From Campylobacteraceae bacterium (GTDB lineage: Bacteria; Campylobacterota; Campylobacteria; Campylobacterales; Campylobacteraceae): DNA of 37,216 bases. Under the pieces are notes generated by a model. That model did not search any database and was not told the DNA's origin. It saw only the letters and a program-made list of their open reading frames with translations. Below, piece after piece: positions 8,555 to 36,760 of the stretch. Each line of letters begins with the position of its first letter. Positions within the stretch are counted from its first letter, which is position 1. Made by a program: the position numbers and the translations under genes. The stretch covers positions 1 through 37,216 of the forward strand of contig JAISNU010000102.1 of the NCBI GenBank assembly GCA_031276075.1, written 5' to 3'.

Positions 8555-8630
8555 AGCTGTGCTGTTTTGACAAATGTCAAAAACTGCTTAAAGTGTAGTA
8601 ATTAGCGTAAAATCTATATAATATAGTCCC

Positions 8631-9323
8631 TTATGTAGTTCTTATATTTGTTATCAAATTATCCTGTAATAATCCGTCCGCGTCTTTTGTAGCAAGTAAA
8701 AAGCCCGTATAAAACTGATTAGGGTCAAGTTTTATATAATGGTTATTTATCGCTCCTGGTATTGTCTCAACCTGCTGTGTCTCTTTAAAGTAATTAATCC
8801 TTTCGTTTGACGCCCGCGAATAACCGATAAGCTGTTCGCTGTCTATACTTAAACGCGCTGAATTAACCGTTATACCTGTTCCAAGTGCCGCTTCGCTTGC
8901 CCATTTTACTTTTAGATACAAACTACTGAAATTTTTTGTAAAAAGTATAGTATCCTGCGGGCGTTTTTCGTTAGGTATTACCAAGTCAATAAATACCGTT
9001 TGTTTTTGTACCTGATTTGATAAACTCGCGCCTTTATTTACCTGTGTAAAAGGCTTAACGCCGTTATTTAAAATATAATTATATACAAGCTTTTCACCTG
9101 CAATCATTTTTATATTTAAGCTGCCGTTTGCTACTAAATTTAAAGATGAAATCAATCTGAAAAGATTATCATCTTTCCAAACCGCGCCCGCTGTCGTCGT
9201 TGTGTTTACTTCCAAGCTTAAAATGTATCTTTGTACATGATAATTTCTTGATAACTCTACATCTTTCTGAATGCCTGTCGTGTATTCAACTACTGCTTCT
9301 TTCCTATTGTATACTCTTGCCAT
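8631..9323 (-). pseudogene. Major capsid protein of a tailless double-jelly-roll (PM2/Autolykivirus-like) phage, apparently truncated in the second jelly roll
   Basis: RYILSLEVNTTTTAGAVWKDDNLFRLISSLNLVANGSLNIKMIAGEKLVYNYILNNGVKP and RPQDTILFTKNFSSLYLKVKWASEAALGTGITVNSARLSIDSEQLIGY match my recollection of the first jelly roll of DJR/P2-type capsid proteins. The ORF stops shortly after what would be the start of jelly roll 2. Confidence 0.6.
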
Positions 9324-9337
9324 GTTTATTTTTTTCC

Positions 9338-9430
9338 TTATTTATTTATTTGTTTCCATATAAAATTTAGGATTAATCCACCTACGACTATTCCAACTAT
9401 ATCAAACGATTTATCTTTTAATATTTCCAT
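9338..9430 (-). CDS. Small single-TM protein (30 aa), candidate tailless-phage membrane protein
   Basis: MEILKDKSFDIVGIVVGGLILNFIWKQINK*; preceded by GGAGTAAAAA-ATG; sits directly upstream of the capsid-like ORF. Confidence 0.55.
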   Translation of the reverse strand: MEILKDKSFDIVGIVVGGLILNFIWKQINK

Positions 9431-9454
9431 TTTTTACTCCAATTAATATTTTTC

Positions 9455-9568
9455 TTATGCTGGTATTCTATTAGAAACTTTATGCAAAAGTTTCACCACT
9501 AAAAAGCTTACAAATCCTAAAATAATGCCATTTTTTAAACGGCTTTTTTGGTCATCTGTGATTTCCAT
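9455..9568 (-). CDS. Small single-TM protein (37 aa), candidate tailless-phage membrane protein
   Basis: MEITDDQKSRLKNGIILGFVSFLVVKLLHKVSNRIPA*; strong SD AAGGAGTAAAGTA-ATG. Confidence 0.55.
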   Translation of the reverse strand: MEITDDQKSRLKNGIILGFVSFLVVKLLHKVSNRIPA

Positions 9569-9589
9569 TACTTTACTCCTTTCATAAAA

Positions 9590-9618
9590 TTGATTTTATT
9601 ATAAAATTTTGCTATACT
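9590..9618 (+). promoter_or_regulatory. Predicted sigma70-type promoter TTGATT-N17-TATACT with extended -10 (TGcTATACT)
   Basis: Direct reading: TTGATT at 9590-9595, TATACT at 9613-9618; divergent to the phage genes. Confidence 0.4.
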
Positions 9619-9645
9619 TTGACATATTGATATAAAGGTTTCATT

Positions 9646-9738
9646 ATGGAAAATTTTTTTATTGCTATTGTTATTGGTTTTATTAGTATGTTTATTATAA
9701 AAATTATTGAAAAATATTTTTTTGTTAAAAAAGCCTAA
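9646..9738 (+). CDS. Small hydrophobic peptide (30 aa), divergent to the flanking phage ORFs
   Basis: MENFFIAIVIGFISMFIIKIIEKYFFVKKA*; upstream AAAGG and the promoter at 9590-9618. Confidence 0.4.
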   Translation: MENFFIAIVIGFISMFIIKIIEKYFFVKKA

Positions 9739-9739
9739 A

Positions 9740-10024
9740 TTACAAAGCATCTATCACCTCAATATTTTTAGGTAAAGTTTTAACCTTCACTGCCTCGTTG
9801 TTTTCTTCCGTGTACCTTATAAATTCGTATTTTTCTAAGTTTCCAATGGCTTCTATTACCTCCTTGCTTAGTATCTTATTTGCATAATCCAAATCCGCTG
9901 GCTCGTTTATCCTTGCAAAGTAAAAAATATCCGTATTTGCCGTTAAACTCCTGCTTACATTCGCTGGTCGTCTGCTTGTCGTTATGATATTTATCTCTTT
10001 GTGTCTTGCAAAGTTTATGTTAAA
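9740..10024 (-). pseudogene. C-terminal part of a HerA/FtsK-like ATPase, probably the genome-packaging ATPase of the tailless phage
   Basis: My translation: FNINFARHKEINIITTSRRPANVSRSLTANTDIFYFARINEPADLDYANKILSKEVIEAIGNLEKYEFIRYTEENNEAVKVKTLPKNIEVIDAL*. The RH..I....+RRP.+VSR.LTA..D....F...EP.DL pattern is typical of packaging ATPase C-termini. In-frame TGA at 10025-10027; Walker motifs lost. Confidence 0.6.
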
Positions 10025-10029
10025 TCAAA

Positions 10030-10809
10030 ACAAGCGTTGTATTGAAAATTATATTATTATAATCCGTCATTGCGAGGAGTGCGAAGCACGACGAAGCAAT
10101 CCGCCATTATAAGAATAAAAATGACATGACAAAACAACGGCTTTTTTATATGTTTAAGTTGCTTTATGTTATTTTTCCAAATTGCTCTACAATATCTGGA
10201 TTGCCGCGCCGCAAGCGGCTCGCAATGACGGAGGAAAATTGTTATGCAAAAAGTGCAGCAATTCAGAAAAACACCAAAGCCGACCGCACATAAAGCACAT
10301 GCGCATCTTCCCGTCATTACAAAAAACAGGAGGAAAGTATATGCGTCTATATTCGTCATTACGAGGAAGGAGTGTAACGACTGACGAAGTAATCCATTGA
10401 TTGAGAATAAAAATATGTTGTTTATTTTATCTATAATAATTTTTTTGTTGTTATAAAATATGGATTGCCGCGCCGCAAGCGGCTCGCAATGACAGAAAGA
10501 GGTCATTACATAAAAATTCTCTGTATAAATAAAGCAGCAACTCTGTCATTGCGAGAAGTATAACGACGAAGCAATCCAATAAACAATAAAAAAGCAATTC
10601 AAATATATAAATAAAAAAAGCGGTTTTGATTGCTGTCAATAATATGTTTTATTGTTGTAAAATGTGGATTGCTTCGCTGACTTCGTCAGCTCGCAATGAC
10701 GGAGAGAATGCTTTTGAACTTATACAAGCGTTGTATTGAAATCACTCGTCGGGTGAGTATAATTGTTTGCATTTTCCGCAATATGAACCGAAACAAGCGT
10801 TGCATGAAA
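10030..10809. repeat. Direct repeat ACAAGCGTTGTATTGAAA: exact at 10030-10047 and 10724-10741, degenerate copy at 10793-10809
   Basis: Direct reading; the two exact copies bracket repeat cluster B and the left one abuts the broken ATPase ORF. Confidence 0.8.
10063..10703. repeat. REP/MITE-like hairpin repeat cluster B (about 6 arms in alternating orientation)
   Basis: ccgtcattgcgaggagtgcgaagcacgacgaagcaatcc (10064), tggattgccgcgccgcaagcggctcgcaatgacgg (10198 and 10461), cgtcattacgaggaaggagtgtaacgactgacgaagtaatcca (10353), ctgtcattgcgagaagtataacgacgaagcaatcca (10543), tggattgcttcgctgacttcgtcagctcgcaatgacgg (10665). Confidence 0.9.
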
Positions 10810-11012
10810 TAACGCTTCACTTTTGCAGGCAAAAGCAACGGTTTACATAAGCCGATACCGAAGGCTTATTTAAACACTGCTTTACTCTGCCGCCGTTTTT
10901 ACTTATTAAAATTGTAAAAAACAGCATTTTGTTTTCATATTATTATCATTGTTGGCAATTTATCCGCGTTTTGCCGTTTTGACAAAGCAGTGCGTTTTAT
11001 TGCTTCGCAAAG

Positions 11013-19335: not shown

Positions 19336-20435
19336 TTTGGATTATTTCGCTGCTTTGTGCCTCGCAATGACGGAGAGATTGTGTCATTGCGAGCGAAGCG
19401 ACGCAATCCATAACATAAACAGAAAAAATTTGTAATTGCAAGTTTACAAAACAGGGATAACTACCCTCTGTCATTGCGAGGAATACGCAGTATGACGAAG
19501 CGATCCAGAGAAATAACATAAAACAATCCAAACAATAAATAAAAAATGTTATTCTATTCATCACTTAATGACACTCTTTTTATTATTATAAATTCTGGAT
19601 TGCTTCGTCGTTCCTCCTCGCAATGACAGAACAGGTTTTTATTTTTTATGGATTTTCACTTGCGCAAGAATGACAATTTCTGTTGTTTCTATTGCGAGCT
19701 TGCGAAGCAAGAAGCAATTTATTGCCATACTCCGTCATTGCGAGGAATACGCAGTATGACGAAGCAATCCAGAATAAAAAATGAAACAAAGCCGTTTTTC
19801 CCACTAATTCCGTCATTGCGACTGCGAGCTTGCGAAGCAGGAAGCAATCCATTTTATTATAAAACATAGATTGCCGCGCTGACTTCGTCAGCTCGCAATG
19901 ACAAAATAACAGTATGTGCTTTGCATGTGGTCGGGTTTATGTGGGGGCGTTGTCGTGCTTCGCTCGCAGTCCTTGCAATGACAAAAAGGCGATGCATGTG
20001 CTTCATTGCCGTTCGGGAATGACAGAAAAGGTAATTATGTTTTTATTTGCATGGGTTGCCATGCTATCAAGAAATACAAGAATAATAACCTTCCGTCATA
20101 CCATCGAAAGCGGGTATTCAAACTAATAAACAATATACTTTATAAATTCTGTCATTACTAAGCATATAATTTTTTTGGATTCCTGCATTCCGGCTTCGCC
20201 TGTCGTTCGGTTGCGGGAATGACAAAGAGAGGCGCATGCGTTTTACTTGTCATTCGGTTGCATGAATGACAAACAGTAAAACACACACTTTCGTCATTGC
20301 GAGCCATTGAAAACGGCAAGGTGATTTATTATTTGTACGATACTCTTTTTATTATTATAAATTCTGGATTGTTTCACCGCAAGCGGCTCGCAATGACGGA
20401 AAGGGAAGATTGCCGCACTCCTCCGCAATGACAAA
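19336..20435. repeat. REP/MITE-like hairpin repeat cluster C (about 9-11 intact or degenerate arms)
   Basis: tgtcattgcgagcgaagcgacgcaatcca (19383), ctgtcattgcgaggaatacgcagtatgacgaagcgatcca (~19470), gtcattgcgaggaatacgcagtatgacgaagcaatcca (~19734), ccgtcattgcgactgcgagcttgcgaagcaggaagcaatcca (~19810). The core actctttttattattataaattctggattg occurs at ~19571 and ~20341. Confidence 0.9.
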
Positions 20436-36330: not shown

Positions 36331-36760
36331 AAATATAGATTGCCGCGCTTCGCTCGCAATGACAAAATTTGGTCGCAAAAATAAAAAGAACAGGAATAGT
36401 TGGAATACAATTACACTCTTTCCGTCATTGCAAGGAGGAACGACGAAGCAATCCAGAAAAACGCCATTTTGTTATTACAAGAAGCAGAATAACGAAGCAA
36501 ATGTATCTTTTCTCGTCATTGCGAACTTGCACCAATCCCTTCTCGCTGCGTTATTTCTCTCTCTGTCATTGCGGCATAGCACGACGAAGCAATCTACAGC
36601 CATAGATAAAAAATAATTATCTACTTTTTCAAATGATACACTTTTTGTTATTGAAAATATAGATTGCCGCGCTTCGCTCGCAATAACGGAGAGGAGCGCA
36701 ATTGCTTCGCACTTCTCGCAATGGCGCAGAGATAGCGAGTTCATACGCCTTGCAATGACA
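36323..36760. repeat. REP/MITE-like hairpin repeat cluster D
   Basis: ttgaaaatatagattgccgcgcttcgctcgcaatgaca (~36328), repeated nearly identically at ~36652; ccgtcattgcaaggaggaacgacgaagcaatcca (36421); ctgtcattgcggcatagcacgacgaagcaatc (36563). Confidence 0.88.

Follow-up and report, generated by a model that had tools for sequence, protein, structure and literature searches.

The question raised by this locus is whether an open reading frame (ORF) of 230 codons in the chromosome of a Campylobacteraceae bacterium derives from the major capsid protein (MCP) of a tailless phage with the double-jelly-roll (DJR) fold. The initial annotation had described the frame as the first jelly roll of such a protein, ending about where the second should begin, and as the fossil of a virus lineage little known in Campylobacterota. 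We analyzed it in the window, that is, the whole stretch of DNA of 37,216 nucleotides, to which all positions refer unless another contig or locus is named (G000 denotes the window's own genome and G001, G003, G006, G008, G095, and G393 denote relatives; C-numbers are contigs and L-numbers loci). The frame is real, with the position and length originally given and with the peptides quoted from it, but its strand needs correcting to minus: on that strand it runs from ATG to TAA, and the plus-strand frame at the same place is riddled with stops. It is not a chance ORF, because it has homologues at 55% identity (E 1.3e-70) in a 319-aa protein of the congener G001 and at 38% identity (E 2.7e-40) in a 317-aa protein of G095, which belongs to another family of the same order. 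The frame also matches PHROG 28223, a family of unknown function (E 6.7e-7). In tblastn, capsid homology ceases at ~8616, a few codons past the in-frame TAA, and we place the junction with host DNA at this point.

AlphaFold modeling of the 319-aa homologue together with eight aligned sequences gave a mean pLDDT of 86.3 and a pTM of 0.84, with a first barrel that ends near residue 165 and a second barrel at about residues 174–316. In a Foldseek comparison of this full-length model with the PDB, the matches listed are DJR capsid proteins only: PRD1 P3 (E 7.1e-23), PR772, the STIV MCP (TM 0.75/0.74), iridovirus and PBCV-1 capsid proteins, and PM2 P2 (TM normalized by target 0.75). Bacillus phage Wip1, Gluconobacter phage GC1, and STIV1 are near the top in a viral structure library. 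When the window ORF is modeled alone (pLDDT 78), a jelly-roll fold is again predicted, and PRD1 P3 (the best match), PR772, and STIV come first, with E values in the 1e-7 range. These comparisons support the DJR reading of the initial annotation, and the window ORF is predicted to encode the first jelly roll and about a third of the second. It was thus correctly recognized as containing barrel 1 but does not stop where barrel 2 begins: by the barrel limits of the model, it comprises barrel 1 plus about 55 of the 143 residues (roughly 38%) of barrel 2. Profile comparison gave a divided result, in that six of eight family members match P2_C, the Pfam model of the C-terminal domain of the PM2 coat protein (best E 3.6e-6; members scanned singly reach 22–23 bits against a curated cut-off of 25), but neither the window ORF, which lacks most of the P2_C domain, nor the ATPase fragment next to it has a Pfam match.

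The features that surround the capsid frame are collected in Table 1. The open stretch at 9740–10018, which reads INFARHKEINIITTSRRPANVSR..., matches its PHROG family ("terminase large subunit," head and packaging) with an E value of 9.1e-8, and the small ORFs between it and the capsid frame were judged hydrophobic by eye only. The resulting order of ATPase tail, membrane ORFs, and capsid head is the same as in the intact proviruses described below; the window copy lacks ATPase codons 1–127 and the final part of the capsid gene. No further viral genes were found in the window, and the flanks are ordinary chromosome, with capsule export and synthesis genes on the left and metK, aat, and polA on the right. 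A beheaded ATPase, a truncated capsid protein, and no other viral gene found in the window bear out the term "fossil" used in the initial annotation. Because only the ATPase tail, membrane ORFs, and capsid head remain, the window copy would be unable to make capsids. We consider 8616–10018 to be, very probably, a dead 1.4-kb remnant of a temperate tailless DJR phage of Campylobacterales that integrates at difH or dif and that presumably contained a membrane.

Table 1. Features predicted in and beside the viral remnant, with positions in the window
Feature	Position	Strand	Basis
In-frame homology beyond the TAA, up to the host-DNA junction	8616..8630	-	tblastn of the G001 capsid protein
Predicted truncated DJR MCP, residues 1-230 of about 319	8631..9323	-	homologues and fold
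Mini ORF MEILKDKSFDIVGIVVGGLILNFIWKQINK, hydrophobic, at the place of the membrane ORF between ATPase and MCP	9338..9430	-	position as in intact proviruses
Mini ORF MEITDDQKSRLKNGIILGFVSFLVVKLLHKVSNRIPA, hydrophobic	9455..9568	-	similar DNA in G003 C58
Packaging ATPase, C-terminal 92 residues (from codon 128), no start codon	9740..10018	-	PHROG 2666; alignment to intact ATPases
CRISPR repeat copy, flush with the viral fragment	10019..10047	-	repeat family behind cas4-cas1-cas2 in G008
Cluster of REP-like elements (GTCATTGCGAG ... GAAGCAATCC)	10066..10700	.	
Degenerate CRISPR repeat copy	10713..10741	-	
Degenerate CRISPR repeat copy, 41 bp from the 10713-10741 copy	10783..10810	-	

A common gene order is found in 7–8 proviruses or contigs from eight genomes. 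The first gene encodes an initiator-like protein (HTH_36; PHROGs "replication initiation O-like" and "DnaD-like") and is followed by a gene for a 190-aa protein and then by that for an FtsK/HerA-type packaging ATPase of 211–220 aa, which is intact in all eight proviruses or contigs (8/8) and lies near the capsid gene, with one or two mini membrane ORFs in between. The capsid protein, of 315–323 aa, is whole in each of the seven proviruses or contigs that reach its full gene. Small membrane proteins and glycine-rich proteins are encoded 3' of the capsid gene and, further downstream, a spike-like protein (in seven) and a PHROG-3108 protein resembling a lytic transglycosylase (in five); the names spike and transglycosylase were given by position and look, without a profile of known function. 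We recognized no integrase inside the proviruses, and neither a rolling-circle Rep nor an M13-like Rep among the provirus proteins scanned. These phages would be expected to form particles with a membrane, and their capsid protein would form pseudo-hexagonal trimers.

Some proviruses carry a gene for a GNAT-type acetyltransferase amid the virion genes 3' of the capsid gene (L009 13774–14247 and L024 3960–4391). At the right end of L009 (17280–17790), two overlapping ORFs, one of 109 aa with an N-terminal hydrophobic segment and one of 76 aa with a lipoprotein-like start, resemble an Rz/Rz1 lysis pair, by eye only. At L014 3343–4660, on contig C44 of G008, two different ATPase tails stand in tandem ahead of a capsid gene head, and one of the tails is fused to a piece of the 190-aa gene, resembling a deletion or recombination product.

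The proviruses are 9.1–9.3 kb long and are bounded by difH or, in Sulfurimonas, by classical dif, with such sites at both element ends in five relatives. Sites of the published difH motif, TGAAAAC...A.TTTTCAAA (PMC2731167), stand at both ends in G001 (8779/18010), G095 (6359/15518), Arcobacter (5377/14672), and G393 (5118/14279); these four elements span 9,159–9,295 bp, and xerH is encoded just outside the provirus in every one of them. The genus Sulfurimonas has a classical dif system (PMC2731167), and classical dif-like sites are located 9,086 bp apart on the Sulfurimonas contig L033. Based on these sites and on the lack of a recognized integrase, we infer that the host recombinase, XerH or, in Sulfurimonas, XerCD, carries out integration and excision, for which the phage would use its own copy of the site. 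The attachment sites track the chromosome-dimer resolution system of the host (difH with XerH; classical dif in Sulfurimonas), and Xer dependence is therefore directly testable in cultured hosts. The first 1.5 kb of L033 (10,633 bp) recurs in slightly altered form after 9,086 bp, which looks like a tandem arrangement of two related proviruses at dif. The window fragment itself does not lie at difH. We rejected the possibility that it is a provirus end at such a site, given that the only look-alike, a left arm with one mismatch at 10039, is made up of the CRISPR repeat's edge and flanking sequence. The host's own difH lies beside xerH on contig C55 of G000, where the stretch examined includes no viral gene. 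At the metK locus, no empty site was definable, and the far-side neighbors in the relatives examined are not capsule genes.

Full-length capsid homologues (314–323 aa) were found by tblastn in several Campylobacterales families. Among 100 related genomes, they occur in G001 and G095, and with the window's own genome counted, 7 of 400 genomes of the order and 10 of 398 in a sample of the phylum carry a homologue. Small tailless DJR proviruses can thereby be placed in Campylobacterota, the named carriers being Sulfurospirillum sp. BB15, two Sulfurimonas bins, Arcobacter sp. BM504, a Helicobacteraceae bin, and Campylobacteraceae bins; most of the relatives are metagenome bins. The window belongs to the same genus as the Kf353 and Ncb351 Campylobacteraceae bins, whose names suggest a termite-gut origin. 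Single-sequence scans of genome and viral contig collections and an alignment scan of viral contigs returned no relatives, and tblastn gave no match for the window ORF in phage records or for a relative in plasmids. The Campylobacterota host proposed in the initial annotation agrees with the placement of the relatives in Campylobacterales. Its view of a fossil lineage in this phylum stands for the window, but the lineage is also present in relatives as near-complete proviruses.

The proviruses resemble members of the PM2 group (Corticoviridae; PMC1950889, PMC5894146) in that a DJR capsid gene and an FtsK-like packaging ATPase gene are shared and that integrated copies with a genome near 10 kb occur in bacterial chromosomes. 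They differ from PM2 in the host phylum, in the length of the capsid protein (269 aa in PM2 P2 vs. 315–323 aa here), and in replication, as the PM2 rolling-circle initiator (P12) was not encountered among the proteins scanned, in which the initiator is of the HTH_36/O-like/DnaD-like type. The NO16-like vibriophages (Asemoviridae), for which Xer-mediated integration has been proposed (PMC9966536), and the tailless Vibrio prophages, for some of which Xer use has been discussed (PMC11630473), are likewise temperate tailless DJR phages with dif-like ends; in contrast to the NO16 type, the elements described here would use difH with the single recombinase XerH in most hosts, and at 9.1–9.3 kb they are shorter than the Vibrio cyclitrophicus elements (12.1–15.1 kb). 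No match to the Campylobacterales proviruses was found in the phage collection at the DNA or tblastn level. The best ATPase matches in phage records are to Marinomonas phage YY, Lysinibacillus phage phiG2, Methanosarcina spherical virus, and Rhodobacter phage Jorvik (E 3e-3 to 0.1); the genomes of Jorvik, YY, and Methanosarcina spherical virus measure 8.8–10.6 kb, but their ATPases are only 21–25% identical to those here and their capsid proteins are unmatched by tblastn. FLiP (Finnlakeviridae) has a DJR capsid protein of similar size and a genome of about 9 kb. An M13-like Rep is the hallmark of the FLiP group (PMC5894146). We rejected a FLiP-type ssDNA phage, as no M13-like Rep was recognized here and a packaging ATPase is present.

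The statement in the initial annotation that few or no such viruses have been described in Campylobacterota is in line with the literature searched, in which we found no earlier description of DJR, tailless, or Vinavirales viruses in the phylum. The main text of the 2018 DJR census makes no mention of Epsilonproteobacteria, Campylobacter, Helicobacter, Arcobacter, Sulfurimonas, or Sulfurovum. PM2-like tailless DJR prophages and the use of dif are already known in Vibrio and related bacteria; the Campylobacterota host phylum, XerH/difH, and the O-like initiator are new as far as checked. To the same extent, we found no earlier description of viral fragments that are flush with CRISPR repeats.

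The ATPase fragment of the window begins at 10018, the base that adjoins a copy of the repeat family ATTTCAATACAACGCTTGTTTCGGTTCATG, in which 30-bp repeats recur with a period of about 66 bp and are separated by spacers of about 36 bp. We identify this family as CRISPR repeats because 13 copies stand directly behind cas4-cas1-cas2 in G008. In G000, about 45 copies are scattered over >20 places, where usually just one to five repeats survive, often beside REP-like elements. A search of this genome, which is 99% complete, found no Cas1, and nine congeners have one. G000 contains four ATPase fragments (in the window and on contigs C121, C14, and C105), each of which abuts a repeat, with two distinct types of junction. 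C121 has the same codon-128 junction as the window, with 313 bp that are 97% identical followed by a different capsid allele. C14 and C105, whose DNA is about 75% identical around the junction, are both cut near codon 103 and are both flush with the same degenerate repeat. In G000, a random end would lie no more than 5 bp from a repeat edge with a probability of about 5e-4. On contig C52 of G001 (L100 4747–5622), at the edge of a 14-repeat array, an 814-bp viral piece stands where one spacer would be and directly abuts a CRISPR repeat at each end; it extends from the ATPase Walker A motif (KSTLTEILLLL) to midway through the membrane gene, is interrupted by a frameshift and a stop, and has only 59% protein identity to the provirus of the same genome. 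Downstream of metK in G008 (C64, L195 3412–4355), part of a different viral gene comes immediately after a degenerate repeat, and another two repeats stand some 820 bp farther along. Pieces of right-hand provirus genes are also found downstream of metK in G006 (L197 130–800), as in G008.

An assembly artefact, in which contigs join host and virus through CRISPR spacers or REP repeats, is suggested by the nature of the sources, which are metagenome bins with many repeats and several contigs that end in viral fragments. However, host genes stand on both sides in the window, and the junction on the MCP side lies within no recognized repeat; furthermore, similar fragments occur in three separate bins, and the frameshifted and interrupted G001 fragment differs from the provirus of its own bin. 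We therefore consider an artefact quite improbable. A similarly low probability is given to the proposal that selection maintains the shortened capsid ORF or the small membrane ORFs, whose products might serve, for instance, as a decoy that poisons capsids or as a factor in superinfection exclusion. This proposal would account for a frame of 230 codons without stops and for the common origin of the fragments detected in G000, all from the same ATPase-tail to MCP-head region, but sister fragments retain only 30–60 capsid codons and have different mini ORFs, so that no product is common to them, and no exclusion is seen in G001 and G008, since both carry a fragment together with a provirus.

Some cellular proteins are reported to be homologous to DJR capsid proteins (PMC8812541), and the window ORF could in principle encode one. 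This reading is contradicted by the adjoining packaging ATPase fragment, by the viral gene order and Xer-site ends of the relatives, which are those of a provirus, and by a patchy distribution (10/398 genomes of the phylum sample). We rejected it as exceedingly unlikely, the context being viral, and prefer to regard the window fragment as the remnant of a tailless phage.

Compared with the tailless proviruses, the CRISPR junctions of such remnants are the less certain and the more surprising part of our analysis. We tentatively posit, with slightly less than even confidence, that CRISPR arrays took up virus pieces of 0.8–1.4 kb where a spacer would normally stand, through either aberrant two-ended Cas1–Cas2 integration of unprocessed virus DNA or recombination between virus and array, and that the window capsid fossil is a giant-spacer remnant of this kind that has since lost its far end to decay. 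Aberrant Cas1–Cas2 capture, virus–array recombination, and later gene conversion are all candidate origins of the junctions. A comparison of 173 spacers with the proviruses gave chance-length matches only, among the matches listed, which argues against simple spacer-guided recombination, and on the same ground we rejected the idea that surviving spacers supplied the homology for recombination. Should the fragments flush with CRISPR repeats be what they resemble, arrays can acquire virus DNA in pieces of kilobase size, which is absent from the usual picture of spacer acquisition; in a limited library, we found nothing relevant on kilobase "spacers" of this sort.

When 1,918 aa of other proviral proteins were also searched against G000, two weak matches only were obtained. 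The skew toward the ATPase tail and capsid head is strong in G000 but is not universal, given the right-hand pieces in G008 and G006, and faster change of the other proteins may account for part of it. The pieces downstream of metK in G008 and G006 lie at the same locus as the window fragment, with other genes and in the opposite orientation. The window contains 26 REP-like cores (GTCATTGCGAG, <=1 mismatch), which are grouped in four clusters at 537–940, 10066–10700, 19361–20390, and 36353–36760.
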